This document shows positions 1,305 through 31,300 of a DNA stretch of 64,000 nucleotides, piece after piece; the stretch's first letter is position 1, and the number at the start of each line of letters is the position of its first letter. This DNA is from Plectrocnemia conspersa (lineage: Eukaryota; Arthropoda; Insecta; Trichoptera; Polycentropodidae): positions 124,001 to 188,000 of the forward strand of contig VTFK01000213.1 in assembly GCA_009617715.1 (NCBI GenBank). The letters are read 5' to 3'. The notes beneath the pieces were generated by a model. That model ran no database searches. It had not been told where the DNA came from and was given only the letters and a program-made list of their open reading frames with translations. The translations under genes and the position numbers were made by a program.

Positions 1305-1429
1305 CTGGATTTGCACCGTCTCTGTAAATCTTTGGTAGATGTCTGTACTGGAGGAAATATTGAATGTGAGTCAATTCGTGGTGGGCTGTTACTAAATCTT
1401 TCATGTTCACATGTGTGCACATTTTTATT
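1305..1429 (-). CDS. Ance-3: Ance-3-like exon 6: zinc-binding HELTH exon
   Basis: 125 nt, the same length and phase as the two alternative zinc exons of the neighbouring ACE gene. It encodes the disulphide Cys (IKMCT), [13 protein letters not shown] and RDGANPG. HExxH ligands and Glu are intact, but Met-Gly is replaced by Leu-Thr. The donor is GTAAAT. The next exon would begin with the FHEAVG third-ligand motif; I found none between 1 and 1304. Confidence 0.94.
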
Positions 1430-4400
1430 CTGTAAAATAATAGTGTTTTTTTTTTAATATTTTTCTATGAATTATATATTCTTATAATGTTCAAATAATA
1501 ACCTGTAATCTTCACCGTTGCAAAAGTCCCATGCAGAGGCTTGACAATGAACGTTTTGCTCCGCATTGTTTTCCAAAATTGATCCAGCCCAAAATGAAGG
1601 AGGAAGTGTGCTCATATTCAATGAAACGAAAAATTCTTCAGCCAATTGGAATACTGTTAATGGCGTGAATCCCTGAAAAAATATAATAGATAGTAAATAT
1701 TTATTAATTAAAATATTCTTTTGTTTTAATATATGTATGTACGCTTAAACAAAACAAATTTACAGGAATATGGTTTAAAAACAACTATGAAAATTTCTTA
1801 AAATAGTGTTCATAAAAATATTTTTCTATTCCATTTTTAATTAAGACATCTAAAACATAGCTAAAACTGTTTATAATAAATCGAAGTTTTAATCACAGAT
1901 GTATATGTGTAATGGCTTCATAACAGATCCAATTCCTTAGTAGCATATTGGATCTACCAACCTTAAGAATTAATTAGGGTTATGTCAATCCAATTAAATT
2001 TAATTATTTAACTGGCTCGTAGCTCTTTTGCACATTATCAGATAAGCAATTAAATTTGCGTGGTACAGCTGTTAGGATCTCACAAATCGATAAATTGATT
2101 TTAATGCATTTTATATTGATTGGCTTACTACTGTTTATTTTTAAGCTTAAATAATTTATCGTAGAATAAATTAAAAGTAGTCTTTTGCTAAAAAAAATGT
2201 TTCGACTATCATAGATAATTAATAAAAATATATTACTAGCAGAACATTGTTCTGAAAAACGTAAAATTATATTAAAAAAATAACGTTTTATAAGAAGTTC
2301 CTTCACATATATTGAAATAGTTGGTTGTTCAATAAATATTATAGATTAACGTTTTAGTGTTTATATAAAGTAAGTTTGAAAATAATATGTTATCAGAGAA
2401 TTTCAATAAGTATTTAATATGAAAAAAATATTTACTTTGATTTAATAATAAAAATTGAAACAATTTTAGGATAGTTAGGTTTAAAAATACGAGCACGGCC
2501 AGGGGAATAAATAAAATCATGTTTTTTTATTATTATTTTCATTGAATATATAGTAATATTTTTTTATTATAAATATTTTTAAATAGCAATTACTTCTATT
2601 AATTTTAGGATTTAAGAGGTGTTTTATTACATTTTAAATTAATATATAAACGCCAACTATAAACAACTTTTTTTAATTTAAGGTTCGAATCAATTTTTTT
2701 TTTTTTTATTAATATTTTTTTATAAACATGTGCTATTTTCTTAATTTTATAAAGATCAAATACACAGTAATAATATTTAAAAAAAAAAATTAGTTCAACA
2801 ATTTTTTTGTTTGCATATATCAAAGGTAAATTTAAAAAAATACTCCCTCTGCTTAAAGAAACCATTGATATGTATGTACATATATATGTTTTTTATATTT
2901 TATAATAATAAAATAATATGGTAATAATAAAATTGATTGATATTAACAATGTCTTTTAATTTAAAAATATTATATATGATTAAGTCTTAGTAATTATGAG
3001 AAACTCAATTTTAAATGGAATTTGTGATTAAAAATAAAATAATTATCAAGCACAAGATTTTTATATTAACTCTAAATCAGCAAAAATAATTTCAAGATCC
3101 AATTAATATTTAATATAGTTAGAACTAAAAATTTAATTTACTAAAAAATCACATTTTTTTTTAAATAAAAACTTATTTTTTAATTATAAAAAATATATAA
3201 ATCCTATTTGCACTGCAAATAGGATTTATATTTCTTGCACCACGAAAAAAATATAATATTAATGAATATAATCATAGACATGTGAAAGAAATTCTGGTTT
3301 TAGTGCAAAATAAAAATAAATTTACTGCGAGAATATCACAAAATATCTAGGTAGTTGCAAAAAAAACCCTATTTTTTTGCAACTAGAGTTATTGCTAACA
3401 ATAAATAAGTTTAGTGAAATTAAATTTATTTGAGTTAAAAATGCTGTACATAAATACAATGTATAATTTATAACTATAATTACATATAATTCAGTTTTTT
3501 TGCACTTTGAGACATCTTAATTTATTTATTTTTACTTATTATAAATGTATTAAATTTTATATAAAAATAATTTCGTTGTTATTGTATTTTAATTATGATT
3601 TCAATATTTTTTATTTTATATTGCTTAATTAAAATAACACATAATTCAAAAAAATATTTTTTTTTATATATTATATATGTATAATATACATATATATTTA
3701 TTTGCTATCATAATCCGTTAGACTAAAAGCGCAAATTTGCGCTACCCCCCACCGTCTCCAATAGCCGTGATCGTCTAGTGGTTAGGACCCTACGTTGTGG
3801 CCGTAGTAACCCAGGTTCGAATCCTGGTCACGGCAGTGGATTAATTCCACTGTCACGGTGGAGACTTTTTTATTATTTTATTTTAAATTAATCTAATAAT
3901 TCAACAAACCTGTTGTATCATTTCTTCACTGACGTCCAAGAAATTTCTACCCGGATACGGAATAGTAACATCCAAAATATTTGTCCATGACTGTCCCCAC
4001 ATGTTTCCCAAAATATGAGCCGGCAAAGGAGCGGATCTACTTATTCGTTCAGGACCATACAGATTCCTCAGCTTCCTTCGCACGTAAGCGTGGAGTTCTT
4101 CGTACAAAGGAGATATCCTTCTCCAAACTTCATCTACGTCCAATCTAAATGTGCGGGATTCGAACGGGAAAGTCCAATATTCAGCTCCATCGGTAAAATC
4201 TAAAATAATAATAAATTATTAATATAAATAAATATTAGTTAAATATTTTTGTGACATCTATGAATGAAAAAAATAAATAATTTTAAATTATGTTTTTGTA
4301 CATAGATGTCACTATTTATTTTTATTAAAACGCCATCAGATATTAATGGCAAACTATACAATTAAATACTAATAATGAAAGTAAATAAAAATGTGCTACT

Positions 4401-7400
4401 TCAGCATTTTTTAAATAATTTTAAGAACACTATATAAAACATTTTAAAAGAGTGTAATGACCCTCATCATCAAACTAGCTTATATTATATAAGTAATAAT
4501 AACTTTCTGACTAGCTAGATACATACTTGTAATGATTTTTTATAATATATATCAAGAATTACAATAAAAATACTAGTATAGGAAATTACAAACGAAATAT
4601 TCAAATATATCATTACTAGTACCTATTGAAAAGTTACATATAAGTGGCTAAATATAATATGTATCTACTAAACAAATAAATATCTGTTTAATAAATAATA
4701 TATGCACCTAAAAATGTTTGTGTATAAAATTCAGATGGCGCAATATACGCTGCCTAGAAATCTTCTATGGTTCAACAGTTAATGCAGCATAAAGCCCAAT
4801 AATGAAAAGCTCAATGTTTTAAACAAAAATCATCAAGATAATTGAAGCTCATTTTCATCTATCTGTATATGTGAACAGAAGTACTGTTTTATGGTGACGT
4901 GAACCATCAGGCTTGGGAACTTCTGCCTATAGATAAATACTATTCTTACCCAATCGGGATTTTGCATCGGTACGCTGAGCGGACCGACACTATATCCAAC
5001 CTTCTTCCAGGACGTGTAACAACCATGGACGGATTATCGTCTCAAAGCTAGTGATAATATCCGTTTCTAGATACAGATGGATATGTGAACAAGTGAAACT
5101 CTCTTTAATAGGGAACTGAAAAAACCTTACACTATACACAAGATACTATTACATCTTTTCAATAGGGTTTATTCTGAAAAGCTAATTGGGCCCTAATTCT
5201 TTGAATATACAGTGACACTGGCAGGCATTACAGTTGTGTTGCGTGAGTTTTTTAAACCCAAATTAGATGCGTTGCTGTTAAAGGATCACTAAGGAACGAA
5301 GAAGTATCATCAAAGAACATGGTCCTATCCATGATGGTCGTCATGTGCGGTATTTGTGTTGCTCTGAATAATGATAGCAAAGTAAGCGAAAAAACAGCAT
5401 AGAAATTAATGACCCTGAAATCCAGCTGCCCCCTGAAAAATGCGTTAAAGCAGATACCAGGTGGCTACCTAACCTCACACTACTGGCCATTGTTTACATT
5501 GGCTGGTGGTGTCTTTCGAATATCCCCCCCAAAACAGTTTTCGTAATAAAATATACTACGTTAATCTTAAAAACATTACTAACTGCGTGATTCTTATATT
5601 TGATTGTTAATTTCTTACTATTTAACTTTGCAGCTTGGTTCGTCAAATCAGCCAACTGTTCATAATGATCTCTGAACTTGAGACCAGTATTTCTCCTCCA
5701 CTCAGTCCAAACGTGCTGGAGCTCAGGCCAATCTCTAGATTTAGCCATCAATAGTGTCAAATCCGGTTGCAGTCTCAATCCACATTTGAAGGGCTCGTTG
5801 TAAGCGCATATTTCAGCGTTGTTGTACACAGCCAACATATCGTTGATCAAACGGTTGTACTGAAATTATACAGAATAATTTGAATTAGCATTTATTGTAG
5901 ATATCTATCTTATGTTATAATCATCACTTACTCTATCTAATTGATCTGGAGGCAGAGCTGCTGGACCGATTATTGACATAAGTCTCAATTGCCTATAAGT
6001 ATCGACGTCGTTCAAGAAGTCTTTGTTTATACCGCTGACTAACTGCCATAACCCTCGTTGAAATAATGAATATCTTTGTTGAGCATCCAACTATAAAAAG
6101 CAATGTAACATAAATATTAACCTCTTATTTTCTATGCATTTCAAATGATATGAATTATTATTATATACATCTATTTAAAAGCTAAAAAATTCTAAGCTAT
6201 TTTAAAGAAACATTTAAAATAATTACTTAAGTCAAAGCTTTGTCGTAAATACAGTACATTTATTTTGTGTAATTTGCACCTAAAAGTTTTAATTCATTTT
6301 TAATCAAGAACATATTTGTCGTTTTGCTTTTCTGTAAAACAAATATTTTGTGTCGTGTCTGTTTTTAAAAAGAAGTCTTCGATTGTCAACAACTTACAGT
6401 ACAAGCTACAATTATTCAGTTTGTGTCGCGTATTCTAATTAGGAAATTACTCATAATTAAAGCCTCATTAAAAACTGCTCTAGAAAAGTGAAAGCACGTG
6501 GACAAAAACAAGACAACAACGCGTTAAGTGACTTTTTATGCAACTGATTGCATTGTTATATCAATAAAATAATGTTATAAATTTATATTATAATTATTCG
6601 CCTTTAAAATCAGATCCTTCAATTGCTCGTTTGTGTCATAGTACAATGTACATTATCATAACAATGATGGATAATTGCAAGATCGCATGGCGATGTTAAA
6701 TAATATTCTTAACGTGTGTAGTAAACGAGAGGTATAAGGTTGTTGATATTTTTTCTCAATAAAACGTGGTTATAATTGTTAACCTTGATTATGTGCGAGA
6801 TTTCATGCTGTTGGATAATACAGATTAAAATTACAGCTTCTCGGTACAAAGGGTTAGTGTGTATTTATTGAGGCGTGGGAAAAGTGTACACATAATCGAA
6901 GGTTCCGTTTATATGCGACAATAATAACTGATTGTTGATGATGAATCTTTAATAGCTTTGATCTTGATGCTTATGTAGTGATGTTAGGAGTGGTTGTTAA
7001 TTAAATGTGAATACATGTACTATATATTTATTAGAGAGGTATATGGGATTATTTTATTTAGAGACATATTTGCAAATATTATATTTTATAATATATATGT
7101 TTAATGTACTTTTCATATCGATAGGATTTAGGGAATTACCATTGAAAAACATTTTTTTCAGTTATGTTAAGAAATTGAAACAAACCAAGTGGCTCTTGTA
7201 AAATAACAAATCATTTTATGACATTAAAACACTAATCAGTTTTACTGAGCTTAGAATAATTAAATTATTTGTTGTAAAATGTATGAATCAATTTAAACAA
7301 ATAATTTATATTGTAAACGTTTATAGTTTATTCAATAGTTATTATAATAATGAATCATAAAATATATAATTGCAAGTTGTATACATGCATGTAATTCGAA

Positions 7401-10400
7401 ACGACCATCTCAGAACTTTTTATAGCGTATAATTGTTATTTGCACCATGAATACATTACGATCCATAAAATTATATGATTTATTTATTATTCCATTGATT
7501 AGTCATATACATCTTATTCATACTTAGACTTGTCATATCTGTAGAGTAGATTATTAATCTATGATTTAAAAGTTTGATTAATAAAATGAATAGTTTTGCA
7601 TAATATGACAGAATAATTATAGCACAACTGCCATCAGAATTATACAACTTACATAATTATTTTTACGGGGCACATTAATACAACAAAAAAACACTACCAA
7701 AGGAAAGTCATATCTATGATGAACTAATAAATATAGGACAATTTCACATTTGAGACAAATATTACCCTATTGTTCTTCAATTCTCAAATAAGTGTTATAA
7801 TCTAAATTATCTTAACAAAAAATCTATTGTGATACGCATTTTCGTATACGAAATAAACGCACTTTTAACAATGAGTTAACTTTGTCAAATCGTCATTATA
7901 TTAAAGCTTATTCAAAGGTCACAAAACGGTTACCGCAAGAAAAATTTCGCTTTTCAAAAACGAATCACCACCTTTACTTTTCAACGTATGAGGTACGTCC
8001 GTTTGTCGTTTTTCTACTTTAGCTTTCCATTGTTTTGTGCTAGTGTTGAACGTGGGAAGCACAATGCAATTTATAGTGTGTTTCTTAATCAGAGCTTCTC
8101 CATATGCCATTTCTAGAAAACATTTTTTATGAGATTTTTATTTTTACTTTTAAAGATAATTTGTTTTCAAAATTATTGTATTTTTATGCTATCGTTGGAC
8201 AAGTTGAACTTTAATGGAGATGCTATGGGGATTTGAACCATCTGCATCAATAATTAAGAGCTCATTCTAACGAATATTTTGAACAAATATAAAGTAATAC
8301 CAACTCCTCTCGAAAATAAGGCATAATGATTGAAGTGAGAACTCTGAATAAATTGTTAATTTTTCATTGATAGCCTATTAGCATATCTAACCTAAATCAC
8401 TCGTAATCACTCATAAAAACCGGAAAAACTAGTCTTTTGTGTGAAATGGATGCGCATTAGACAATGCGTTCTACTCTGCGCAAAAAGACTATTGTTATTT
8501 TTAGCCCTTTATTAATGATCGCCGAAAGTGGCCATCTGAAAGTTTCACTTTTAAAGCCTAAACACATTACGTAGGTGTGTCCAAAAAGCGATGCAATTAG
8601 TCCGCCAACATCCTCATATGCGATTCACCAGAGCTATCTCGAGCCAGCAATATAAGAGATGTGACACTTGCTCATAGAAGGAGCAAAAGCAGACGAGCAG
8701 ACATACAGACAGAAGAAGATGCTCTAGAGACGCCAAGAAGTCACAGCACTAGACACGTCAACGGATCGCTTTATAAGATTCCCATGTCGTATGGACGAAG
8801 TACCGTCACAAATTCTGAATTGTTAAATGAATAAATTTGATTAACTAACAATACCACTAACTTCATTCCATAATTTTGTTACTTATGTATCTGATTTTTT
8901 TAATTTTGCGCAGAATTTCAAAGATCTTTTAAATAAATATAATTATTAAAGTCATTATTAAATGTGTTCCTACTATTGTTGTTTCCAAAAGCGATAAAAT
9001 ATTAGTATTTATTATAAGAAAATAGCATTATTATATAATAAAAATAAAATAGTGAATATTTCTTTAGAAGCGCAGGGTAACACCCCCACGGTGTACGGCC
9101 GAGAGGCAAATAGTAGTGGATTCTAATTAGAATGTAACGGTAAACCGTCGAGCTCGATAGGGAATCGTCTAGCATCATCACGACAGATCACAACCGATAA
9201 AAATTTAATTTGACACCTCAGCGAAGACTCTCCGATTTTCGAGATATGCCATTTCGACACCTCTATGTATATAGATGTCACTGATTGTCAGGCTGTTTGT
9301 TACATCTGATTGACTACAGATTTACCCCATTGTAACGCATTGGGCTTACGCCGAATAGGTTGAAACGGAAGATGTAAAGAAATGGTCAGTTGTTAATCGG
9401 TCAGTAAGTATAACAAATAGTGAGTAATTATATTAAACGGCCAGTACTTATAATGAAAGGAGAGGTTTTTTTTTATTGGATTTTCGGTTAAATTCTAGCA
9501 ATTGATTGAATAAAACTATTAAACTTGTTTTTTTAATATCAGATGCATCAAACGCAATGCTTAAGGGATTTGATGAAGTTTTTGGTGATGATGAAAAAAA
9601 TACTTTGCTGGAACACTTTAGAAAATTTAATCATAAGTTGAAAGAAATTTTAGAGAAGAAATAGTTTGAGCCAAGAGCAATGATTAATTAATAATATTTT
9701 AGAATTTTATTTTTTATATTTCAATAAAATAGTAGTATTTTAAGACATATAGATTTGTTTTATCTGATAAATTAGTTCAATAATATTAGTTTTATAAATA
9801 TATTAAACTGGCTCTTTGAAATATCTTTACAGAGCATAAGTCTAAAAGTTAAAGACCGTTTTCAATAAAATTACTGACCATTGTTTACAAAGCTACTGGC
9901 CGTTTGACAATTGACCATATATTAATAACATTACTGACCGTTTTATTTCAAAATTACTGACCGTTTATCGTTAAGAAACTGACCGTTTAATTTGTAGCTG
10001 TTTTTTGCTACAGTTTTTTATATAATATTAAAAATAATTAATTATTAAAATTAAGTACATTATTGCTTTTATTTCACTATTTTTAAACTATTTTCAAATT
10101 CTATTGATTATTTAATTAGAAAATATTTAATTAAAAAACTAACATGTAAGCGAAATAATACTCGTCGTTTAGAAGAATTACGACATTTATGCGAATAACT
10201 TAGTCATTCGTACAAAAGAATGCATTGTATCAGTCAAGTACGAAACATAATCTCATACTTTTTTATATGTGTACACATATGTATATATATATTTTTTCAC
10301 ATCAAGCACAATGTACTTTTAATAATTTAAAATAATCTATGAACACTGCTATTTTATAAGAAAAATTATAAATGTTTATTTACATAATAATATTATATTT

Positions 10401-13400
10401 TGACCTAGAAATAACGATTGTGATGTGAATAATAATGTGCATGTAAGAAATGAAATATTTTCGTGCTAACTACCTAAATTTCATAATCGAAAATAGATCT
10501 AAGAAAACAATATGAATCCAAATTCCCATATAAATTCGAGTCAATTGAAGCATATTGTTTATGAAACAGATTTGTTAAAAAAGGTTTATTTTGATTTATT
10601 GTATCGTTTTTGAAATAGATTTTATTTTTACGCTAATAAATGTAACAAATAAGCTAGTTTATTTTAATTATTTCAAGGTATAATTGTACCCAATGAAGTT
10701 TGTGATGAAACGTTAACAAAATGCTTATTGTATTACATAATGAAAACCGCAACATTTCATAGTTTCACATCACCATACAAAATGCATTGTTTTCAGTGAT
10801 TCAATACATTTCAAGAGCATGTCGTTTTATTCTTTTTTGACCTCGACATGCATGTTTTAACATTGTTATTTAGTCATTTTGTTAAATATAAATTAAAATT
10901 TATTTATATAAGAAAGATTTAATTAAGTTGCATTAGTCATTAGGAAGTGGATGCAATAAATCATAAATTATAAGCAATTATTATGAGCAGTGAAGCAAAT
11001 ATTTAATATATAATTACGAATTATTATTCATTATTCTAATCTAAAAACTTTATTCATGATAATTTTAAGTGTATTTCATATTAGGAAAAACAATATTTGA
11101 CTACGGATTTTTAATTTTAATCAATATAATTGTATTATTAAATAAGGATAAATCTGAATTGAGTTTCATAGTCGAATTGAGAATAATCTTTGTTAAAATA
11201 TTCTACATTTCAATAATTGGCAAGATTTTTTAAAACATTTTCGGTTAACAAGAGCGAAAAAATATGCATCTTTAATTAAAAATATATTAAAATACTAGCT
11301 TTTTAGTTTAATTTATAAAATAAGTTTTTTTTTATTTATTTAAAATATTTTTTAATTAACGGATCTATGTAAATTATGGCAAGAGATTAGACAAAGTGGA
11401 TTTTCTCAAACTATTTCAGATTATTCTGAACTAATCGGATTATTATCCGTTTCTAGAAATAGCATAATTTTCTATATAAATATTATGATATATATTATTT
11501 ACAATTTTGTAACATACATATTTTGTAAGAACATTGCAGTGTTATTTTATGCATTAAAAATTCTCTAAATATAGTTATTTTAATTTAATTTGTAAGTTTC
11601 TCAGGTTTACTTTTAAAAACTGGTTGTATGTTTTGCTACTTAATTTTAAAATACTTAAATAACCTTTCATTTAATTTAGCATCAACCATTTTACAAAATT
11701 CCAATGTTTTGTTGAAAATCATACAGCAATAAATATTTAATTGAATTTATTCACCAGTCAAATTTAGAAAAAAATTAAACACAGATTGAGAGTGCATCCG
11801 TTATTATTATTATCGGACCAAGACATCTAGTCTTGAGAGCACTTCTCTTACACGATCCATTTAGCTCCTCAATGAGCTTGATGGGAATCCAGCAATGATT
11901 GGCAACTTTTAGCTGCGAGCTTTGGAGTGTCCTAGAGAGTCGCGATCGCGTCCCTTATTCGTCAACCCTCGAGAAACTTCCTCTTACACGAACCATCCAG
12001 CTCCTCAATTAGCTTGTCAAACATGTTTTTGGCGATAGCTATGAAGAGCTGGGTAAATATTATGTGGAATGCTGCTCATTTATTTTAGGTGTGCAACAGA
12101 ATTGTTTTTTTCTAATTTTTTTAATATGTAATGGTATAATTTAAATTTTGTGTAAATCTTTAATAATATGTATAATGCACACCATGACGCATTGGGGAAA
12201 CCTGTCAAGTCAATATGGTCAGATTTATATTAAAAAAAAAATAGTTAAAATGCAAATCAGAAATTATTAACTGACACAAATGTGATTAAACAAATACAGT
12301 TTTATTTTGAATAGTGTTATGATATCATTGGTATTAAGAAACATATTATATGTTTCATCTAAACCCATTATTATTTCTCAGTTAATCATCTCACCTTGCA
12401 TTTTAAATTACACATATAAACACAAATCTATATTTGTACCATTAATTTCACGGACACTCCTGACATTAAAAATAATATATTTAACAATAGCAGCATGTCA
12501 GTGTTTGTCAAATGTCAATTTTGTCATACATCAAGAAAGCCAAATATGGAACACTAATTAACATTCGCTCTTACAAGTCGATCGATAAACAAAACTATAC
12601 GATTTATTGTTAAACTTTTATTGTTTCCTGACAATTGTACGTTTCATTGATACGTTTGTCTTTTATCTTTTATTTGCTCGTTACACAACCGGCAAAAAAC
12701 AATAAGTGTCGTTTGTGTAGATTTGTATGAGTCTATGTCCATATGCGAAAGTAGTTAAAAGGTGAAAAGATTCAGAAAACTGCGATCTTGAACCGCTTAA
12801 AAATGTTTTATATATTGTGCTTTTTCATTGTTTAAAAATATTTTGGGAGTCCAACTATTTTAAAGTAAAACTAAGGTCATGTAAAAGGTCAAGCGACAAA
12901 AGGTTCACTTATTATGATATTAGTGTAATGATTTTCCTCTTAAAATCCCACCCATCGTACACGAATTGTGATTTTCTGGCGACAATGGTGTGCGTAATTT
13001 GTAAATCTAGCAAATTTTGGGTGCTATTAAATATTGGATGTTGAATGAGGTGCGTGTCGCAAATCGTTAGTAAGGCATTTGCCCGCTAAAAATTGGCGGT
13101 CATGGTTTGGTGACCATATGAAAAAAATCTAATTGAATCTCAGAATTCATTAAAAATAATACATTGTCAAATGCAATTATTCTGTGGTTAAGTAATATAC
13201 TAAGAAATTGATGCACATTTTGTATGAACTTAGTAAAATATTTGTATATGTATGAAGATATCTACATCATAATCTCACTTTGAAGTTAATGCTCAAAATA
13301 GGTTTAATTACATCTTAGTATTTTGGCCAAATTTCCAATACTTAAGCTTAAAACATCCAGCCAGCAAAAAACATGTAAATATATAAAATTACTGTAACTT

Positions 13401-16400
13401 AACGGCTGACATGATATAGCCAACAATATATTTGTATACATATAAATACTAATGAATCTGCTTTTTTTTCAATTATGTTTCGAAAAATCTCTATTTAGTC
13501 AAACATATTGCATCAAAAAATAATAAAAAGCTCCTTAACTATAGTAGCTCACTCCTGCTGAAATTATATTATATAATTCATACTTTAGAAAACTTGTACG
13601 TGGACATCAAATTTGTCAGATTTGGTACATGACTATGTAAAAAATGTAATAATTGAATAAATATAATGATTGATACGCTATTGATTTTTAATAAACTTTT
13701 AATAAAACTAATTTATCGCTTAATAACTTCGAAGGTTCATTAAGATTAATGTAAATGAACGAATTTATTTAAATATAGCTAAATATATTAAACGTTTATA
13801 ACATTTATAAATCTATATTTAACCGAGAAAAACCTTGAGGTTAAGAGGTGACATTCAAAATATAATTTCTACTAATACGTGTTTTTTTTTATTGTTTTAT
13901 GTTATGCATCTATGATCTGTGTCAGACTGCGTCTACGTTATCCACCAGAGCGTGTCGGGTGTTTTTATTTTACGTTTTCATTTCGCACTTCATGCACGTA
14001 AGATTTTTTTACCAGAAGGCTCATCACGTAGTTAGAGTGATGCTGTTAGAGGTCACTTGCGAAATCTTGCGTCCCAGATTGATCTGCATTGCTAAATATT
14101 ACGTAGACGCACGTAACAAGAACGATCACAATCTCGATAGTGTCCTTTGTCGCAGAATCGTTTACGTTTCGATGCACTTTGTGTCTAATAGCAAATCATT
14201 AAGACAAAATGCTTGATGTTTCTTGGTAAGTAATTGATAAATAAACACTAATGCATAATACGCAAATCGACAGCCATCCGTAACAATCGTTTAAAAGGTG
14301 TTGTCGAGTAACGAACTTGACCCGTATAAAATGCTTGAATGGATATAGTCTCTACAAGTTTATGTATTAATGATAAAAAATCGACATTTTATTGAACCAT
14401 AGCTTGTTTTAACCCAAAACGATATATGGTGTAACAAATTTTCCTTTATTAATAGATTTTAGATTAATAAAAAGCTCCTGCATATTTTCCGAATAGCTTA
14501 ATTTTAAATATTTAAAATAATTAAAAAGTCGTTTAGAGTAAGCTCTGTATTATCTACTTATATATTGCTAAACCTTAATTATATATATAATACATTAAGA
14601 TATAATAATTTATTCACGATTTTTCCCAATACATTAGAATAACTCTTAGCTGCAATTAAATTTCGTAACCGAAAAAGATTAAACCAATATTTGTATAAAA
14701 GTATGTGATATACACGTTTGATAAAAAAATATCTTACTAACAATTAACTGTGTATTTATCTAATAAAGTATAGAAATTAAATTGATAAAGATTTTTGTTG
14801 TAATAGAAAAAAAACGAATCATTAAAAAATGTAATATCGATATTATTTTAAAACATATTAGCGAAAGATTTCTGAAAGCTAAAATAAATTAAGATTAGTG
14901 TACTTGTAAAATAGTTACATAATTAAAACGTATTGGCATTATTCTTTTAATTTGCAGATTTTATATGAAATACTGCTTACTACAAAAGTAACTTAATGTT
15001 TTTTTAACTTATATAATTTTATAAATTGCTAATTTTTTTTTAAATAAATTTGTGATATATTATTTTTATATAATAAACTTAATTTTTTTCTAATATTAAT
15101 TAAAAATATTTTTGCGTAAGTGCAATGGCGTAACTAGAGTTTGTGCAGCCCAGGGTGATCCTTAACTTCGCCCCCTCCCCCTCATACAATTATCTAATAC
15201 AAAATCTGACCTTCCTAAAAATCTGTAATTTAATGCATGTCTTCAATATGCCAAAACTTTCCGGGGCAGGCAGCCTTTTTTAACCCCCCCCCCTAGCTAC
15301 GCTGCATATCCTTCACATATAAAAAATATGTAAAATGTATAAAAAACAGTTTTGAAGTTTAATTAAATAATGGTTATCAATCAATAAAAAACATCTGGAG
15401 TAACTTCGACTTTTACCGATTCTAAAAAACTGATTAGCCTTTAACTATTCGTGAATATATATTTTTTAGCACATTTAGTTTAAAAACGACACTACATGAT
15501 CTGTCCCTCTATCGCGGAAATGCCGCCCCCAAATGGGTGCCGCCCTGGACGGTCCACCCTAGCTAACATATAAATTTTTAATCAATTCATGTGAACCTAA
15601 TTTATTTATTGTTGTGCAATTTTTTTTTATAAATTGATATACAAATCTAAAATAAAAGGTTTGAAAAATAAGTATAGTTACAGTAGCATAGTTACCAAAA
15701 TTTTTTTTTAATATGCGCGAAACATTTGAAGCGATAAATTGTGTACTAAAGTTGCTCCTATGTAGCTTAACCTATGTTTTTTTATTGTTCAACTAACCAT
15801 TTTGTAACCCATTTAATCAAAAAATGTAAAAATAATGTACATATATCATTGATATTTCAAGAATAAGAAATATTTCATGACTAGAATTAACTAATAAATA
15901 TATGGATATACATATGTAGGATTGTACAGTGCATTTTTAATTATTAATATAAGGTAATTCTATTAGTTACAGTATTAAAAACTATTAGTGTCAAAATCAA
16001 CATAAAACCTCTCTCAAAAAGCACAAATGCTTCTGCGAATATTTATGATAATATTATTGCAAACTAAATTTTTGCTGTCGTCGGTCTAAAATATTTATTT
16101 ATTACTACTGTAAACTATCCTGAAACAGTATATGTTGAGCAATTTTAGTCATTTAGTCACATATTTATGTTTAAATATTTATCATTGAATTCTATAAAAC
16201 ATTTTTTGCAATCCTTAAATAAAAAAAATACTAATAAAAAAGTGATTTTTCATATATTTGACTTAGGTATTTTGGTTAATTTAGAAATGATCATATAAAA
16301 CTCTTATATTTAAAAGCAAAACCTTATACAATAAACACCCAAAATAAAAATGTTTTTTAATGTAAATCCGATTCTTAAACCAAAGTTGTTTAAATTAACA

Positions 16401-18074
16401 TAAATAATAATGAATTAATAAGCATATTTAAATTGTAATGAAGCTACTTAAGACATATATACAGTGCAAATGTAAAAGAGTGTAAAAATCTCTTGAAAAA
16501 GCATATTTTTAAGATAGTTGCTTTTTAAATTATTAAGCTATTAAATTTATTTTAGATACAAGATTTAATTTAGTTTAGATAAAATTGATAAAAAATAAAT
16601 CACTTGAATTAAAAACTTCATACTTGTTAATTTTACAGAACTAATACATATGGATTGGTTTTATTTATTGAAATAAAATTCTGGATTTGTTATTTTCACA
16701 GAAAAAAATATACCATTGGTTCATTCAAGTACATGAGTTGTCAAACTTTCTAGAGACGCTTATTTATGATTACTTGATATTTCAGAGATGGGAAATTTTG
16801 ATATCATATGTATCAGAATGATGGAAAAAAGTGATATTAATAGGTTATTTTCACACAGAATTACAGTTAGTCAATTCACACTTCATAGATACATATTTTG
16901 TTTCTTAACTATATATTGTTGTATGAATCTTGTAGTATGACTTTGAATTACCTGCTTTAGAAGAGACAGTAATTTTTTGTATATATTCAAATAAAACATT
17001 ATTGAATATTCAATTTTGCCAATCATTCTTTAAAATTCATCTATATTAGCAAGTCTGAGGTGTAATTACAGCACATGTTTTAGAATGAAGTCATTTTTTA
17101 GCCAAAGTAAACTTAAAGGCATTCATATGTATAATTATATATTAATGAATTTTAATTTTACATGATATAACTTGAAGTAATTTAAGTTTTAGACTTTAAT
17201 GATCATATTGTCAACTTATTTAAAATACTCCTTATTGATTTTAATTTAAATTATAAATTTTAACTGGTAAAGTAACCGTATAATTTATTATTTTACAATA
17301 ATGCATATGAGTGCATAGTGTTTATTACGGCAAAAAATCTATGTGGGAGCTATCATGCGACAACAAAAGAATAAAGAGACAAGTCAAGGTAAGTTTTCCG
17401 CTTATGTAACAATTGAATTTCCCAGTGTGTGCACAAGAACCTACAGCACGGAAAATTAATAATGAATAAAATTGACTCACAGCAGCCAGTTGTGAGACTT
17501 CGTTGACATCCGTCTCAAAGTTCCACTGAGCAGCAACGTTATTTGCACATTCTCCTGAAGCTTGAACGTCTATCTGAGATAGCAGCTTCCTGAGCGCCAA
17601 AGTATCTCTATGTTGATTAAATTGTTGATTGCCCTGCTGATTACCCTGCTGAGAACCTCTAAACCCATTCTGATTCCTATAGTAATCTTCTTGATCCGCA
17701 TCCGGAAATTGTGGATTTTGATTGTAGTTCCTGTTATCAGGATCGTTTTGATTCGAATGACCGCGATTTGTAACGTCAGGGTTTAAACCTCTAACATAAT
17801 CTTGTGGATATCCAGGCGTCGAAGAATAGACATTTTGTCTCGGAGTGGACGAATAAGGATTATTGTATTGGTCTATCTGGGGGTTGTAAGGCCTAGCTGT
17901 GGATATCCCGTTGTATTGATTGAAATACTCATTCGGTCTTGGAGAACTCGATCCTGGTATGTCCAATTGAGCCTGTGCGTTCAATATCAACGAAAATATA
18001 TTTACGACCAAAACTGTGATTTGCTCCCTCTGGTGCCATATAAATGGTATTCTTCTTCTGTTTACACAAGCCAT
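1305..18074 (-). CDS. Ance-3: ACE-like (Ance-3-like) gene, 5' part, six coding exons
   Basis: This gene encodes a peptidase-M2 (angiotensin-converting enzyme) family protein, the secreted or surface zinc dipeptidyl carboxypeptidases of insects. I built six exons (17481-18074, 5932-6090, 5619-5859, 3910-4199, 1503-1672, 1305-1429) from GT-AG sites with consistent phase, giving about 526 residues before the window ends. Residues 1-40 hold a basic stretch and a hydrophobic segment ending NAQA, a likely signal peptide or anchor. Residues about 40-160 are Asn/Gln/Pro/Tyr-rich and unlike any ACE domain. The M2 domain then runs to the zinc motif HELTH at 502-506. The usual motif is HEMGH, and the conserved CHASAW motif reads CQASAW, so the His equivalent to human ACE His353 is Gln472. 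The exons carrying the third zinc ligand and C-terminus are off the left edge. The Ance-3 name is an inference from the long leader and tandem position. Membership of the M2 family is certain; catalytic activity is doubtful. Confidence 0.93.
1503..1672 (-). CDS. Ance-3: Ance-3-like exon 5 (CQASAW)
   Basis: 170 nt. It encodes [19 protein letters not shown] through [15 protein letters not shown]. The usual CHASAW His, a substrate-binding residue in human ACE, is Gln here. A further unpaired Cys replaces the aromatic residue of WDFYN. The acceptor is TTTTTCAG and the donor GTTATT. Confidence 0.94.
3195..3231. repeat. Perfect 18-bp palindrome
   Basis: Arms 3195-3212 and 3214-3231 are exact inverse complements around one central base (core TTTGCACTGCAAA). 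It is in an intron of the Ance-3-like gene. No associated element is recognised. Confidence 0.9.
3353..3385. repeat. Inverted repeat with A/T-rich arms
   Basis: AGTTGCAAAAAAA is followed by TTTTTTGCAACT a few bases later, a 12-bp stem. This is a probable remnant of a small foldback element. Confidence 0.7.
3764..3835 (+). tRNA. tRNA-His (anticodon GTG)
   Basis: A 72-nt cloverleaf. The acceptor stem GCCGTGA pairs with TCACGGC, and the discriminator is A. The anticodon stem CTACG/CGTAG closes the loop TTGTGGC, with anticodon GTG at 3797-3799. The T arm contains GGTTCGAATCC (B box) and the D arm TAGTGGTTAGG (A box). No CCA is encoded, as expected for a nuclear gene. A T6 run at 3866-3871 is the likely Pol III terminator. 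The gene sits antisense inside an intron of the Ance-3-like gene. Confidence 0.96.
3866..3871 (+). terminator. Pol III T-run terminator of tRNA-His
   Basis: Six T residues 30 nt past the mature 3' end. The trailer between them contains a 7-bp hairpin (CAGTGGA/TCCACTG, 3834-3852). Confidence 0.7.
3910..4199 (-). CDS. Ance-3: Ance-3-like exon 4
   Basis: 290 nt (phase 1 to 0). It encodes [13 protein letters not shown], then [17 protein letters not shown], the ACE motif whose Gln (human Gln281) contacts the substrate C-terminus; that Gln is kept. The donor is GTTTGT. In the paralogue at 25.4-31.6 kb this single exon corresponds to two exons, so an intron was gained or lost after duplication. Confidence 0.94.
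4251..4309. repeat. Inverted repeat GTGACATCTATG
   Basis: GTGACATCTATG and CATAGATGTCAC are 12-bp inverse complements about 35 nt apart. The same half-motif recurs near 9274-9283 and 29,757-29,772, so it may be the end of a short dispersed element. Confidence 0.65.
4730..5480. other. Higher-complexity intron block, unidentified
   Basis: This stretch is clearly less A/T-biased than the surrounding intron, has few homopolymers, and shows short open stretches on the plus strand (around 4895-5050) broken by stops. It looks like an old insertion or an unannotated transcript. I do not recognise a protein. Confidence 0.35.
5619..5859 (-). CDS. Ance-3: Ance-3-like exon 3
   Basis: 80 codons plus one base. 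It contains the paired cysteines of the first conserved ACE disulphide ([13 protein letters not shown]), then [20 protein letters not shown] and NQAAKLN, which is diagnostic of M2 peptidases. The acceptor is TTTCAG and the donor GTAAGA. Confidence 0.93.
5932..6090 (-). CDS. Ance-3: Ance-3-like exon 2
   Basis: 53 codons, phase 0 to phase 0. The acceptor is TTTTTATAG and the donor GTAAGT. The product contains [14 protein letters not shown], matching the conserved ACE helix region around 'LGxAALP'. It lies 11.4 kb from exon 1. Confidence 0.92.
7919..8107 (-). other. Open, GC-richer segment; possible exon or gene fragment
   Basis: On the minus strand, TTTTCTAG is followed at once by AAATGGCATATGG and 62 open codons. 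The product begins [20 protein letters not shown] and is Lys/Thr-rich. Base composition differs from the surrounding intron. I do not recognise the protein. It could be an internal exon of a nested gene, a transposase fragment or chance. Confidence 0.25.
8510..8765 (+). mobile_element. LTR-like fragment, family shared with 39.78-40.10 kb
   Basis: Several blocks match the sequence at 39,780-39,930: GATCGCCGAA with GCCATC, GATGCAATTAGT, and AGCAATATAA followed by ATGTGACA. The last looks like a TATA-type promoter block. Spacing is similar in both copies, suggesting a solo-LTR-like or promoter-bearing retroelement end. Confidence 0.5.
8768..9173 (+). mobile_element. TIR element (406 bp), copy 1 of a MULE-like MITE family
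   Basis: This is homologous over its length, in opposite orientation, to 56,445-56,925. Shared blocks include AAGATTCCCATGTC, GGACGAAGTACCGT, ACACCCCCACGGTG and TAACGGTAAACCGTCGAGCT. The left end GCTTTATAAGATTCCC is inverted, less perfectly, at 9160-9173. No target duplication is visible here. There is no coding capacity. Confidence 0.75.
9375..10000. mobile_element. DNA transposon relic with subterminal ACTGACCGTTT arrays
   Basis: At the left end the motif AACGG(T/C)CAGT occurs at about 9384, 9398 and 9437. At the right end its inverse (A)CTGACCGTTT occurs at about 9852, 9872, 9893, 9911, 9931, 9954 and 9977. Opposed subterminal arrays are typical of transposase-binding ends. Between them, an AG acceptor at about 9540 is followed by an open frame to a stop at 9664 ([20 protein letters not shown]), which looks like the last exon of a transposase. 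The superfamily is not assigned. Confidence 0.65.
11838..12025. repeat. Duplicated segment, about 137 bp apart
   Basis: CTTACACGA(T/A)CCAT is followed in both copies by AGCTCCTCAAT and AGCTTG (11,849-11,880 and 11,984-12,016). On the minus strand both copies read KLIEEL(N/D)GSCKR, so this may be a decayed coding repeat from a mobile element or gene fragment. I do not recognise the protein. Confidence 0.5.
13899..14216. other. GC-richer intron island
   Basis: A sharply bounded stretch of higher G+C and CpG in an AT-rich intron, open on the plus strand for 105 codons but with no recognisable protein. A conserved non-coding element or enhancer is the simplest reading. Confidence 0.3.
15123..15567 (-). 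mobile_element. Composite hAT-type MITE, reverse orientation
   Basis: The ends match the intact copy at 37,338-37,602 in reverse: CAATGGCGTAACTAG with GGTGATCCTTAA at the left, and ATGCCGCCCCCAA with CCCTAGCTAAC at the right. A further terminal motif (TAGCTACGCTG, 15,294-15,304) and a C-run lie inside, so one copy seems to have inserted in another or been rearranged. Confidence 0.7.
17481..18074 (-). CDS. Ance-3: Ance-3-like exon 1: signal segment plus Asn/Gln-rich leader
   Basis: 198 codons, ending in phase 0 at donor GTGAGT. The start ATG at 18074 has a good context (GACAATGG). Residues about 19-36 are hydrophobic. Residues 40-160 are low-complexity, with repeated Tyr-Asn-Pro and GNQQ units, and are likely disordered. 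The last 35 residues begin the ACE fold ([20 protein letters not shown]). A second reading frame over the same bases is only a shadow. Confidence 0.9.
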
Positions 18075-18383
18075 TGTCACTTTGGTAGGAACAACTCAAA
18101 CACTTATGGTTGATTTGAAGGCATAGACACGTTTTCGTACTTCCTAGGTGCGTTATCACCGCAATGACCCAGTAATACACGTTATCTCTGGTTAGCGTGC
18201 GAGTTACGACTGAGTCGCCGAAGCCGGGAGAGTTCAGAGGTAAACCAAACCGACACCTGTTTTGTGCGGCCCTCCTCAAAGACACGCCGGTAAAACAACG
18301 ACTATTGTTCTGCAATTGCGCTAATTTATTCACACCCGACGACCGCTGAAAGCGCAGCCGGCTAATTAGAAGTAATACTAACC

Positions 18384-25371: not shown

Positions 25372-28300
25372 CTGCAATAGAAAAAAATATTATATAATGT
25401 AATGCTTGACATTTTAAATTAAAGCATAAATATTATTATACATACCAACTTTACTTGGTTCCCAGCCAATCAACTCCCCAGTTCTTTTATTTTCTGCTTC
25501 TAACCATTGATGTAAAGGTTTAAAATATTCTAGTATTCCACTAGCATCCATTTTTCTTTGACCTGTCAACATTTCCATGCCGTCTTGCCACGGCCGAGAT
25601 GAACCCAATTGCAACATTTTTCTTAAAACAGTAAACACAATCAATGAAAGATACTTATTATGAAATCTATTATATTTTATGTCATAATCAAATTACCCTA
25701 ATGCATTTCCAGCTGGAACACTTTCATATATATCGCAATCGGTGAGCTTTTTAGAATCATCTCCTGGTACGTATTCGCCAGCTTTTTCGCAAAGTGACCG
25801 ATGGAATTGGAATTGGATGATGAAACTCACATAATATCTATAGTATTTTAAAACAAAAGTTAATAATTGTTATAAAAATAATTATTAATATCTCTATTTA
25901 TTAAGTCTAATTTTAGTTTAGAGAGCATTTAAGAGAATGTAATACTTTCTAGTTGTAGACTATATTTGGTTTAATGTATTTTATGAAAGCATCAACAGTC
26001 AGACAATTTCAATTTCATTGCTGCAGTAACTGCAGTAATTGAAATAACATCTAGTTAATAAGACAATTGTTGTTCAACACAGATTTCAGTCAAAGTAATA
26101 TTTTGCACAACGATTTGTTTTTATATGTTAAAAACAATGATGGTTAAAATCACCTCTTGACTTTTATTCTAGGGATATTGTTATATTGTAGTAAGAGGTG
26201 TATAAATCTACGCCACGTAATACAAATAGATATAATCATAAAAGTTGGTACAAAAACAAAAAAGGACCATTAGTAATAGCAATAAATGATGCTTTTATCA
26301 GATGCATTAATAAAGTTAAGGAACACGATTTTTTGTAGCAATACTTATGCATCACCATTTATATACGAACCTTGCATATTCGACATCAGCAGATACATGA
26401 TATTTTGCTGCTGCATCAAAGTCTGCTTCGGTACGTTTCGTCGGAGGCTCCAAACCTTGATACGATTCTCTCAATTTCCAGAAATCACAGTTGTAAGTAT
26501 TTGGTGTAGTATCACCTCTGAATATGGCGTAACGATATTTATCGAGTAACAACGCAAACGGCAAGAAGACAACTTTATCGATACCCTACGATGATAATAT
26601 ATAATGTAGTAAAATATTGTAAGAATGTATTTAATACATTAAAAGATATTTACCTTAGTATATAAGTTGTTAATCTCTAATTGTGCATCGTCTGGAATAT
26701 CACCTAATAGTTTAATTTTCCTCAAGTGTTTTGGGGACGATACTGAAAGAGCAATTGTGTCACCAACGGCTTCATGAAATCCTAAAAATGATATAATATA
26801 TACATCAAGTATATAATTGTTATTATGAATATGTTATAAGTATTTAGGAGTTGTATAAGGTTAGTGATATAAATTAATGACTATATCGAGACCATTCGAC
26901 GTGACATATAAAATCGATATGTGATATGTCCATTTTATACGATTTATTTTATATATATGTATACATGTTAGTGAATGTGTATTACCATTGAAAATATATC
27001 TTACTGTCATTTCGGTAAAATCATAACGGAATATATTTTTACCGGTAGAAAAAAATATTTCAACTAAAATATAATTTCACTGACAGGTGTTAGTGAATTT
27101 ATATGCTACTCTAAGCTGTCATTTTACAGGTGTCTATTTAAGTTCTTTTAAGAAAAAAAATTATTAAAATTAAAAAAAAGTTGTAGGATGACACATCACC
27201 TGTTAATGTCAAAATGTTCAAACCCAAACTACAGTTTTTGAACTTTCATTAGATCAAGTTGGATTTGGTTTATTCGTTAAGGTTAGGTTTGATTTGAACA
27301 GCAAATGGATGTTTCGCAACTGTCAAATTGGGTTTCAACGACAGTAGGGCGATACATTAAAGTTAGGGCAAAAATGTTCAGTTTGATACATTTTCACTGG
27401 TCTAGTTAGTGAAATTATATTTTTACTAGTGAAAATGTAATTTCAATGAAAAATACATATTCACTGTAACATATACATTATATATGTACATATATGCAAA
27501 TTAAAATTAGAAAACTAGTATTTTAAAGCTGTTCATCCAGACGTGTTCCAAAAAGAGTTATATTAATGCAATCCGGGGGCAGAATTTGGTCACATGATAA
27601 TGGTATTACTTAAGGTGACTAGCTTTTGTAAATATTAAAGGAAGACACTAAATATATAAAGGTCATTTCAAAAGTTTTTCTGAAAAGATCATCAAAATTT
27701 TTTTGAAGAGAAATTGCTACGGGGGCGCAAAAAAAGTCATTTTAGAAATTTTTATTTAAAAATGACAAACGAGGGCAACATATTTGAAGAAGACAATCCT
27801 CAGAGTAGGACGTCTAGTCACTTTACATTACTTATTCTCCAAAATTCAAATTCAAATAAAAATCTCAAAATAATACTATTTTATGATGGAATCTTTTAGC
27901 ACAGAAAGGCAAATGTTAAATGTAATAAAAAATGCCTTATTAATAATTAACGTACGTTTTTCGTGTAACTAAATGTGACATGTCTGATATATAATAGATT
28001 CTAGATATCATAAGTTTATTCTGATTCCTTAAATGAATTTTAGATATGTCACTTCAACATTAGAATAAACTTGTGATTTTTACTGCTATCATTATATGTA
28101 AGTCACCTAGCATCCGTAAAAGATTAAGCCACTATTAGAAGAATACGAGAGTATACATTGATTGTTATCAATATTCACAAACCATTTATGTAAATTTCAC
28201 TACAACTATTAAAAATATCTAACTACACAAAATACACATACACATATCACATCACGAAGCCGTAATAACTAAACTTTAAAATATTTAAACTACCACTAAA

Positions 28301-31300
28301 AGGATCACAATATACAAAATAGATACCAACACCATTCTTATAGACCAGCCCAATAAAATAGCTGTTTTATACCTGGATTGGCACCCTCTTTATATACGTT
28401 CGGTTGATCTTTATACTGCAAGAAATATTGTATATGGCCCATTTCGTGATGAACGGTCTCGAGTTGGTTATGAGTCACTACAGTGCACTGTTTTATCCTT
28501 AAAATTGCAAACAGAAATTGTTAGTCGTGCGTTGAATTAAAATAGGCATACCTGGATTGGCTCCTTCTCTATAAATAGCCGGTAGATGTTTATATTGCAA
28601 ATAATACTGAATGTGGCCCATTTCATGATGGATAACTCTAAATTCATCATTGTTAACGACTGTACACATTTTTACCCTTAAAAGTGAATTGTTATAGATA
28701 AAGGCACCGAAGAGCAATCAAATCAATGTTATCTGAACGTTTTAATCAAACTTATATGAGAATTGATCACATTTCAATAATAATATGTATTCTGTATTAA
28801 ATACAAAGGTTGATCAAATAAAATCTTCAAAATTGAAATAAAATCAAAGGCATCTTTAGTTGATAATTTCGTTATTATAGACTTTAAAAAGCTGATAGCT
28901 ATGATTCCAAAGAGAAGCATTATATTATCAGTTTTTTTAAGCAGTAAAGTAATGATATCTATTTTGATGATTAATAGGCGAATGTTTTCTTATGAGTATG
29001 AAATTTCGTTATGTTATGACCCTACAAGTCATTCTACATGCAGACAAAATACTTTTTTTTTAGAGAAATCCATGCACTTTGTAAAAGATGGTGAATTTTA
29101 AATTAAACATATTAGAAACTACAATACATAAAAAAAAGATCAGGATAATTATGTACTAATTTTGCTCAATAAATGATTAAAAATATATATTAAAGATTTC
29201 GTTTGAATCGCCCTTGTTTAACGAATGGTTGTATATGAAGTGTAAATCAACCTAAAATCTTCTCCGTCGTAGAAGTCCCATGCGGACGCATGACACACCA
29301 TTTCTCTACCATCATTGGGTTTTTCTATGATCGAATTTTCCCAAAACTTAGGTGGCATTGCCGTTAAATTGAGTGATTTGAAAAAATCATCGGAGAGCTG
29401 GAACATCTTCAATGGTGTGTATCCCTATAAAAAAAATTGTGATTAAAATTACAAATTTAAGATATTAATCTATAAATATAATACTTGAGCTATCATTTCA
29501 GGAGTGACATCTAAGCTCTGTTTGTCCGGGTAGGGTGTGGTAAATGATGCCAAGTTACCCCACGATTGCGCCCATACATTTCCTGTAAACATATCATAAT
29601 GAATCTATTCAATTATAATAACAATAATTATATAAGAAACACCTAATTACGCATAGAACATTAAAAACTTAGTAACGAGGTAAATAATTAATATTTCATT
29701 ACTGGTTTTAAAGTTGGCTAAATTAATTTTTGGTTTACTTTAATATTTTTACTGTTCATAGATGTCTACATGTGTAAAAATAATTGAATATTTTATTATT
29801 AAATTTATAGTGGATCTATATATAACAGCAACCTGTCTGATTTTATAAAATACAACAATATTTTCGAGCAATTTATAAACATTTGGACTTAGGCTATTAA
29901 GACAAATAAATATAAAAATCTCTTAATTTGTGTATACTACTTTTTCAATAAGCATGATTTATAATTACTAGTTTATGTAAATATAAATTGTTCCAAACGA
30001 AGTAGCACATTGGGTGTTAGTTAATATTAGAGCGTTAAAAAAAGAAGTTATGATCAGTTGTTATTTAGAATTTTTGAAAACTATATCCTTTTCATTTGCT
30101 TTTCAGTATTTGTTCTAATTTAATTTTCTATATTGTTTAAGAATATAATGTCGTTCTAATATTTTAAAATATATTTCAATATATTAAATATTAGATTTTT
30201 CGATCAAACATAATGAGTAACAGTTTTGGTTATACTGCTTTATACATAAGTATAAAACAGTCCTCTAATTTTAGTTTCATACTAAGGCTCTCATATAAAT
30301 ATAGTTCTCTGTTTTGAGTATATAATTAACAGTCAAGACCCCTTGCAAATGATACACTTCTTTAAAGCCAATGCCAAATTAAGACCTTCAAATTTTTATG
30401 TGTAATTTTTCTGAAGAATCGCCTTTCACACAAATATGTCTATAAATATAAAAACAATGACTTTCTAAATCTTTTTCTAAGATTTAATATAAATCAATCA
30501 CAGATTGATTTACATTAAATCCAACTGCTGGTTACATATTATATAAAGCATACCTAAAAGATGAGCTGGGATCGGTCCTTTTCTATTGATTACATCTTTC
30601 CCGTATTTATCGTACAACCTTTTTCTAACATAAGCGTGCAATTGAAGATATAACGGCTTCATTTGCTCCCAAGTTCTATCCATTTCATCTTCAAAGTTGT
30701 CTTGTTCGTATTCTCGAAGCCAAGACTCAGCATTATCGTTGTAACCTGTTTCAATTAACAATATAAATTAATATTCAAATACATTTATGCATATAATCAT
30801 TAATATTACCATTTAATTTAGCTGCTTCGTTACTGAAGCCAACATATTTTATGAACAATTCTTTAGCTGGCCGACCGGCTGCTTTGTGCCATTCTAGCCA
30901 GGTGTGCTTAAGTTCCTCTGGATTTGTGCTGGTCGCAAATATTTCAGTAATATCTAAACATTGCGTAATATAAAGCATTAAATGTTAAAATATATAGTAT
31001 TTAACACAATATGTATATGACTTACCAGGCTCTAAGCTTAGATCACATTTTGTTTTATTGTCAAAAGCACATATTTTTTGAAGTCGCATAATTTGTTTGC
31101 ATGTCCGACAAAGCTTTTTGGAGCTGTTCAAATTTATCGGCCGGTAAAGCAGCCGATCCAAGTTTAGAATATTTCGAAAACTGTCTCTTCAAATCTTTAT
31201 CTTGAAAGTCTGTCCAGTTGAACGCCGTCGTATCTTTCCATGCCTTTTTACTTTCCTCGGACATAACCAAGGAAGCGTTCAACTAAAATATTTTATTTAA

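Follow-up and report, generated by a model that had tools for sequence, protein, structure and literature searches.

Tandem alternative versions of the zinc-segment exon, with probable mutually exclusive use, in an ACE gene of the caddisfly Plectrocnemia conspersa

An ACE gene with two tandem versions of exon 7

The window, the whole stretch of 64,000 nucleotides analysed here, corresponds to C200:124001-188000 of the Plectrocnemia conspersa genome assembly (393 Mb in 959 contigs). The pair under study belongs to a single ACE gene that occupies, in the splice model, the minus strand between 31570 and about 25414, with exon 7 present as two tandem versions, 7a and 7b (Table 1). Exons 3-11 match the Peptidase_M2 profile (PF01401) with 729.2 bits (E = 4.7e-219) when joined through 7a and 730.5 bits (E = 2e-219) when joined through 7b, against a Pfam cut-off of 23. 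Both the HExxH zinc motif and the downstream Glu ligand are found, the former as HHEMGH in 7a and 7b and the latter as FHEAVGD in the shared exon 8. The closest full-length protein, among the best 120 of 7731, is ACE-like isoform X2 of another caddisfly, Arctopsyche grandis (P0003), with 73% identity, and it clusters with the window gene in the rest-of-protein tree at an SH-aLRT of 98.

Table 1. Features of the ACE gene in the window, in order of transcription.
Feature	Position	Strand	Basis
ACE exon 1, with start codon and hydrophobic N-terminal segment	31352..31570	-	splice model; N-terminus like Arctopsyche P0003
ACE exon 2, frame broken at T6 run 31074-31079	31026..31282	-	splice model; compared with P0003
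ACE exon 3	30810..30953	-	splice model
ACE exon 4	30554..30745	-	splice model
ACE exon 5, carries 2 of 3 variable S2' residues by motif placement; one copy found	29485..29582	-	splice model, published subsite table, tblastn
ACE exon 6	29252..29424	-	splice model
ACE exon 7a (KMC type), HHEMGH zinc segment, alternative 1	28552..28676	-	splice model, tblastn, divergence counts
Intron separating 7a and 7b, 54 nt	28498..28551	-	splice model
CTAAC branch-site-like motif, A 30 nt from 7a donor	28520..28524	-	motif match, predicted
ACE exon 7b (KQC type), HHEMGH zinc segment, alternative 2	28373..28497	-	splice model, tblastn, divergence counts
ACE exon 8 (third zinc ligand, FHEAVGD)	26654..26781	-	splice model
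ACE exon 9	26371..26585	-	splice model
ACE exon 10	25697..25837	-	splice model
ACE exon 11, drawn to first in-frame stop (actual 3' end may lie elsewhere)	25414..25621	-	splice model

The initial annotation had placed two tandem 125-nt exons at 28373..28676, and the splice model returns the same coordinates. The splice signals described there as intact are indeed so: the acceptors read ...ACTTTTAAG (7a) and ...CAATTTTAAG (7b), the GTAT donors read GTATGC (7a) and GTATAA (7b), and the two exons share their phases, entering in phase 2 and exiting in phase 1. Over whole codons 25 of 41 residues are identical, as are 85 of the 125 nucleotides. Joining exon 6 directly to exon 8, or to exon 8 through both 7a and 7b, breaks the frame and produces in-frame stops, as had been claimed. 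Tandem homologous exons of equal length and phase with compatible splice sites, and a broken product from both or neither, are the marks of a mutually exclusive exon cluster, and each of them is found here. With the 7a peptide as query against the window and five further genomic stretches, tblastn recovers 7b at E = 4.7e-19, so the likeness is not a product of chance; a relaxed tblastn search (E up to 1) detected no third copy of exon 7 in the gene. The zinc ligands and catalytic Glu had also been reported as kept in both exons. This stands for the two zinc histidines and the Glu, which lie within HHEMGH in 7a and 7b alike; the third zinc ligand falls outside the pair, in exon 8.

Compared with relatives, the reading frame of exon 2 breaks in this assembly at a six-T run of the plus strand. 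Assemblies commonly contain one-base errors in homopolymer runs, and a base-call error or a recent lesion of this allele is the favoured explanation. The break would also be expected if the gene were a decaying pseudogene in this species, with the pair inherited from a functional ancestor, and no second copy of the gene was found in the assembly (family scan, at least 33 exon matches). However, the other 11 exons are open and bounded by GT-AG sites, and with homopolymer errors being so frequent, decay of the gene is improbable.

Each of three other ACE-like genes has one exon-7 match: L010 on C105 (HHEMAH), L009 on C515 (HHEMGH) and a gene within the window (match at 1303-1434, HHELTH) that we take to be Ance-3-like. 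No match above chance was obtained in L011-L013 by tblastn with the 7a peptide. With a single match each, or none, these genes were rejected as the source of the 7a/7b pair. The Ance-3-like gene is itself large, extending over 1303-18095 of the window on the minus strand with very long introns, and continues in L012 and probably in L011; L010 and L009 represent divergent ACE-like genes.

Selection on the two exons and their probable single use

Nei-Gojobori counts between 7a and 7b give differences at 20 of 23.2 synonymous sites (pS 0.86, saturated) and at 20 of 99.8 nonsynonymous sites (pN 0.20). Neutral simulation to equal nucleotide divergence (5000 runs) introduced a stop in 78% of runs, and 25 residues were kept in 0/5000. 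Saturated synonymous divergence combined with the retention of 25 of 41 residues thus indicates that both exons have long been under purifying selection as protein, which agrees with the earlier proposal that selection preserved both versions. An arrangement in which one exon is a relic or decoy, either never used or acting as a poison element that lowers output when both are included, would fit the stops produced by double inclusion. It is nevertheless very unlikely, as the reading frame, splice sites and zinc motif are intact in both exons, whose synonymous divergence is saturated, relatives have one type or the other on cDNA-like contigs, and both are named isoforms in a katydid.

Mutually exclusive use of 7a and 7b is the best reading, with a probability of roughly 0.8. 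It is drawn from equal length and phase, the loss of frame with both or neither, saturated synonymous sites with the protein kept, and the same-species pairs, differing almost only in exon 7, that are present in moth and katydid; for Plectrocnemia conspersa itself, we infer that each transcript would take either 7a or 7b.

The anatomy of the pair suggests how single use might be enforced. The 7a-7b intron is the shortest in the gene model, the others measuring 60, 64, 68, 69, 72, 75, 533, 575, 971 and 1591 nt, and the A of its CTAAC motif, a predicted branch site, is separated from the 7a donor by 30 nt and from the 7b acceptor by 23 nt. Under a simple ad hoc score, with all sites being predictions, the best branch motifs of six other short introns lie 33, 40, 41, 41, 50 and 55 nt from the donor, the value of 33 belonging to the intron between exons 8 and 9. 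For human mutually exclusive exons, a donor-to-branch-site distance below 50 nt is given as the limit for steric interference (PMC5740500); the predicted distance of 30 nt lies under this limit, and the other short introns reach 33-55 nt. Because introns of 60-75 nt occur elsewhere in the gene and the exon 8-exon 9 motif sits at 33 nt, the 54-nt intron and the 30-nt distance are not far beyond the usable range, and that motif argues against a sharp steric limit. Most likely, the short intron, with its putative branch site at a donor distance of 30 nt, would hinder the joining of 7a to 7b, and frame loss followed by decay would remove wrong products as a backup.

The introns flanking the pair (window 26782-29251) also contain 14 pairs of AT-rich inverted repeats, and one intron-6 stretch, 28945-28966, has two possible inverted-repeat partners at 28002-28018 and 28315-28328. 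Competing RNA structures that the 14 pairs might form were set aside, being judgeable only with relatives.

Exon 7 pairs in other insects and the age of the two types

Three protein searches, each contributing its best 120 (of 6219, 7731 and 7991), yielded 239 proteins, and 142 of the first 150, together with the window isoforms, were screened for same-species pairs after eight partial or double models had been dropped. Among the proteins retrieved, P0001 is a two-domain ACE fragment labelled as a Gammaproteobacteria MAG, which looks animal-like and may be contamination. The initial annotation had proposed a search of related insect genomes; the protein searches gave same-species proteins differing only, or almost only, in exon 7 in moth and katydid. 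Over whole proteins, P0010 and P0069 of the moth Spodoptera exigua are identical at 604/605 positions outside exon 7 and at 29/43 inside, and isoforms X1 and X2 of the katydid Anabrus simplex at 602/602 outside and 31/43 inside. The corresponding values are 602/604 and 38/43 for Aphomia sociella (P0036/P0043) and 601/603 and 38/43 for Chilo suppressalis (P0056/P0062), both of which belong to a second moth ACE gene in the rest-of-protein tree. Across the five pairs, the window included, exon 7 differs by 5 to 16 residues. In the second moth ACE gene, the differences of the Aphomia and Chilo pairs lie mostly in exon 7 and include residues 360, 363 and 387.

The database pairs could instead represent separate near-identical genes or haplotypes, as the Aphomia pair lies on contigs of unequal size and the S. 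exigua and Chilo pairs derive from sequences of unequal size, probably from different assemblies or annotations. However, 604/605 identity outside exon 7 against 29/43 inside is unlike ordinary gene duplication, Anabrus X1, X2 and X3 are named isoforms from equal-size contigs that differ only in exon 7 or exon 5, and the window pair is seen directly within one gene, leaving a very small chance that separate loci account for the pairs.

Further models and contigs carry one or both types. The models of Timema californicum (P0008) and Gryllus bimaculatus (P0195) each have two unlike exon-7 segments one after the other, as when a predictor fuses both alternatives; Cherax P0004, whose two segments are identical, was discounted as a repeat introduced by assembly or gene modelling. 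Close moths are recorded with opposite types at about 95% identity elsewhere (for example Loxostege/Ostrinia, Galleria/Achroia). Open reading frames of 645-648 codons fill about 90% of 2.1-kb contigs that look like cDNA, with the 7a type in P0005 and P0074 and the 7b type in P0089. Transcripts with one exon at a time are represented in relatives only, by single-exon reading frames on such cDNA-like contigs and by the same-species pairs. Moth and katydid appear to share the arrangement, and the exon 7 switch would then not be private to Plectrocnemia conspersa.

The history of the two types was examined with rest-of-protein and labelled exon trees of 58 proteins, hand-picked from the 239, and the two window isoforms (60 rows), with trees for this gene alone (26 proteins and the window pair, 28 rows) and with a similarity comparison of 22 moth proteins. 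In the rest-of-protein tree the KMC and KQC labels require 12 changes against a shuffled mean of 12.8 (60 rows), and for this gene alone 12 against 9.7 (28 rows). In the exon tree with the label column included, they require 1 change, and 14/14 KMC exons lie on one side of a branch with an SH-aLRT of 87 (43 columns; 1 of 54 branches starred). With the label column removed (28 rows), 3 changes are required against 9.6 when shuffled, and 0/500 shuffles are as low. In that tree a supported clade (99/97) unites the 12 moth 7b types. The 7a types form no resolved group, window 7b and the Arctopsyche exons are placed weakly among them, and one KMC clade appears in 0/200 bootstrap trees. The AU test rejects grouping by label for the rest of the protein (p 9.5e-58) and does not reject it for the exon (p 0.196). 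Mean similarity, again with the label column removed, places 7a closer to moth KMC exons (176.1 vs 165.2) and 7b slightly closer to KQC exons (169.1 vs 166.4).

Across moths, then, the types lie scattered over the rest-of-protein tree and come together on the exon tree. We read moths as having carried both exons throughout, with annotations picking one or the other. On these trees, the two exon types are older than the sampled moths and likely older than the caddisfly-moth split. A single origin of all exon-7 pairs was considered and rejected: in the Timema californicum model the F type precedes the Y type, opposite to the order in the window, and 375/380 residue combinations vary freely over 276 segments, so separate duplications of exon 7 are possible.

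Substrate-pocket residues, related systems and meaning for ACE

Eleven subsite residues differ among Drosophila AnCE, human cACE and nACE (PMC12025037, Table 3), the fly enzyme being compared here through this published table. With AnCE numbering placed via the zinc ligands His367 and His371 (PMC12025037) and the human sequences, the two listed S2 residues (375 and 387) and the three S1' residues (360, 363 and 364) all lie in exon 7; exon 5 holds two of the three listed S2' residues (266, 268), and 0/3 of the S1 residues fall in exon 5 or 7. At 360, 363, 364, 375 and 387, respectively, window 7a/7b read D/N, R/E, V/T, Y/F and E/E, differing at four of the five. The same positions read Q/V, L/Y, T/T, F/Y and E/R in Anabrus X1/X2, E/E, R/Q, T/T, Y/Y and E/D in S. 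exigua, E/A, A/K, T/T, Y/Y and G/R in Aphomia, and A/E, K/T, T/T, Y/Y and G/A in Chilo. The Anabrus swap exchanges F for Y and E for R at exactly the two S2 sites where the human domains differ, the C-domain having F391 and E403 and the N-domain Y369 and R381. These two positions, 375 and 387 in AnCE, are linked to domain-selective inhibitors, and nACE R381 may be a weak target (PMC11880972).

Over the five pairs, with the Gryllus pair left out, 16 differences fall at the five pocket columns; for five random columns this gives P 0.0035 when all 43 are drawn from and P 0.068 when the 23 variable ones are, the latter being the fairer control. Single pairs give P 0.056 (window) and P 0.017 (Anabrus), and the entropy ranks of the five positions among relatives are 7, 1, 24, 16 and 5 of 43. 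The location of exon 7 over the S1'/S2 pocket is striking, and the excess of pocket changes in these alignments is suggestive only. Exon-switching of the catalytic centre, as initially proposed, needs rewording: the segment does appear to be switched, the catalytic centre itself is unchanged, and it is the S1' and S2 pockets around it that change more.

As zinc ligands and catalytic Glu are kept in both, both isoforms should be active dipeptidyl carboxypeptidases. Differing in S1'/S2 pocket residues, they may provide two ACE activities from one gene, with different peptide or inhibitor preference, and a change of enzyme specificity through the 7a/7b swap is slightly favoured. It is possible, and less probable, that exclusive splicing is real and serves the timing or place of expression, with residue differences that are near neutral. 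Four of the five pocket positions do rank among the 16 most variable of 43 columns, and the enrichment is weak under the fairer control; against this, across many families the moth 7b types have remained a single supported group (99/97), separate from the 7a types, and between the two exons of the window there is a charge reversal at an S1' position and a Y/F difference at an S2 site tied to human domain selectivity.

Exon 5 offers a parallel. Between Anabrus isoforms X1 and X3 (P0179) the only differences lie in residues 272-301, which are exon 5, where WAQSWA of X1 reads WASTWG in X3; by motif, this replaces the equivalent of AnCE Gln265, a residue said to be conserved among homologues and assigned to a conserved carboxylate pocket (PMC12025037). 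Timema tahoe and Timema cristinae models contain two exon-5-like segments. Exon 5, with its S2' pocket residues, also appears duplicated and alternatively used in P0137, P0146, P0179 (Anabrus simplex), P0193 and P0201 (Timema). No second exon-5 copy was found in the window gene by relaxed tblastn. Tentatively, at a little under even odds, exon switching of the substrate pocket may be old and widespread in insect ACE, with caddisflies and moths switching exon 7 (S1'/S2) and the katydid and stick insect also exon 5 (S2').

The closest known parallel in design is coq-2 of C. elegans, helminths, annelids and molluscs, in which exons 6a and 6e are likewise internal and equally long, at 134 nt, a length not divisible by three, and are used singly (PMC7434440). 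The coq-2 swap remodels the enzyme core near the substrates and changes substrate choice, which resembles the switch proposed for ACE; the enzyme and phyla differ, and specificity was tested there by exon removal, whereas in ACE it is inferred from sequence (PMC7434440). It is described as rare for one splice event in a catalytic core to alter enzyme specificity clearly (PMC7434440). In the fly, mutually exclusive exons likewise fall at the active site of CG42249, one of the systems treated in a survey that counts nine such events affecting catalytic sites; it is a probable nucleotidase in which key catalytic residues change, whereas ACE keeps its zinc ligands and Glu and changes the pocket (PMC7954323). 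Exons 4a/4b of OGDH set calcium sensitivity rather than the substrate pocket (PMC7969005).

Within the family, Drosophila AnCE and Bombyx BmAcer (P0082) resemble the window gene in being single-domain enzymes with the zinc motif, and BmAcer falls in its rest-of-protein clade. BmAcer differs in being recorded as the 7b (KQC) type, with no second Bombyx type among the matches listed (best 120 per search). The N and C domains of vertebrate somatic ACE are like 7a and 7b in being two catalytic units with one type of zinc site and differing S1', S2 and S2' residues (PMC12025037, PMC11880972); they differ in standing together in one two-domain protein, whereas 7a and 7b, if the present reading is right, would give alternative single-domain proteins through exon duplication. 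A retained intron has been reported in aphid ACE (PMC4351530). The initial annotation knew of no described catalytic exon switch in an insect ACE, and a literature search, with subscription papers mostly outside its scope, likewise found, among the papers listed, no earlier description of mutually exclusive, alternative or duplicated exons in ACE; the word 'angiotensin' is absent from the main text of the insect mutually exclusive exon survey PMC3303723 and of the effects survey PMC7954323.

If the proposed switching of the pocket is true, splicing would let insects draw several ACE specificities out of one single-domain gene, a task for which vertebrates have two fused domains. The reason for keeping two ACE domains with different pockets could then be studied in insects as a choice of splicing made tissue by tissue, and the five pairs would supply naturally occurring enzymes separated by 5 to 16 exon-7 residues around one active site. 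Work on insect ACE that relied on a single cDNA may have overlooked part of the enzyme, a point of relevance to studies of peptide turnover, reproduction and inhibitors.
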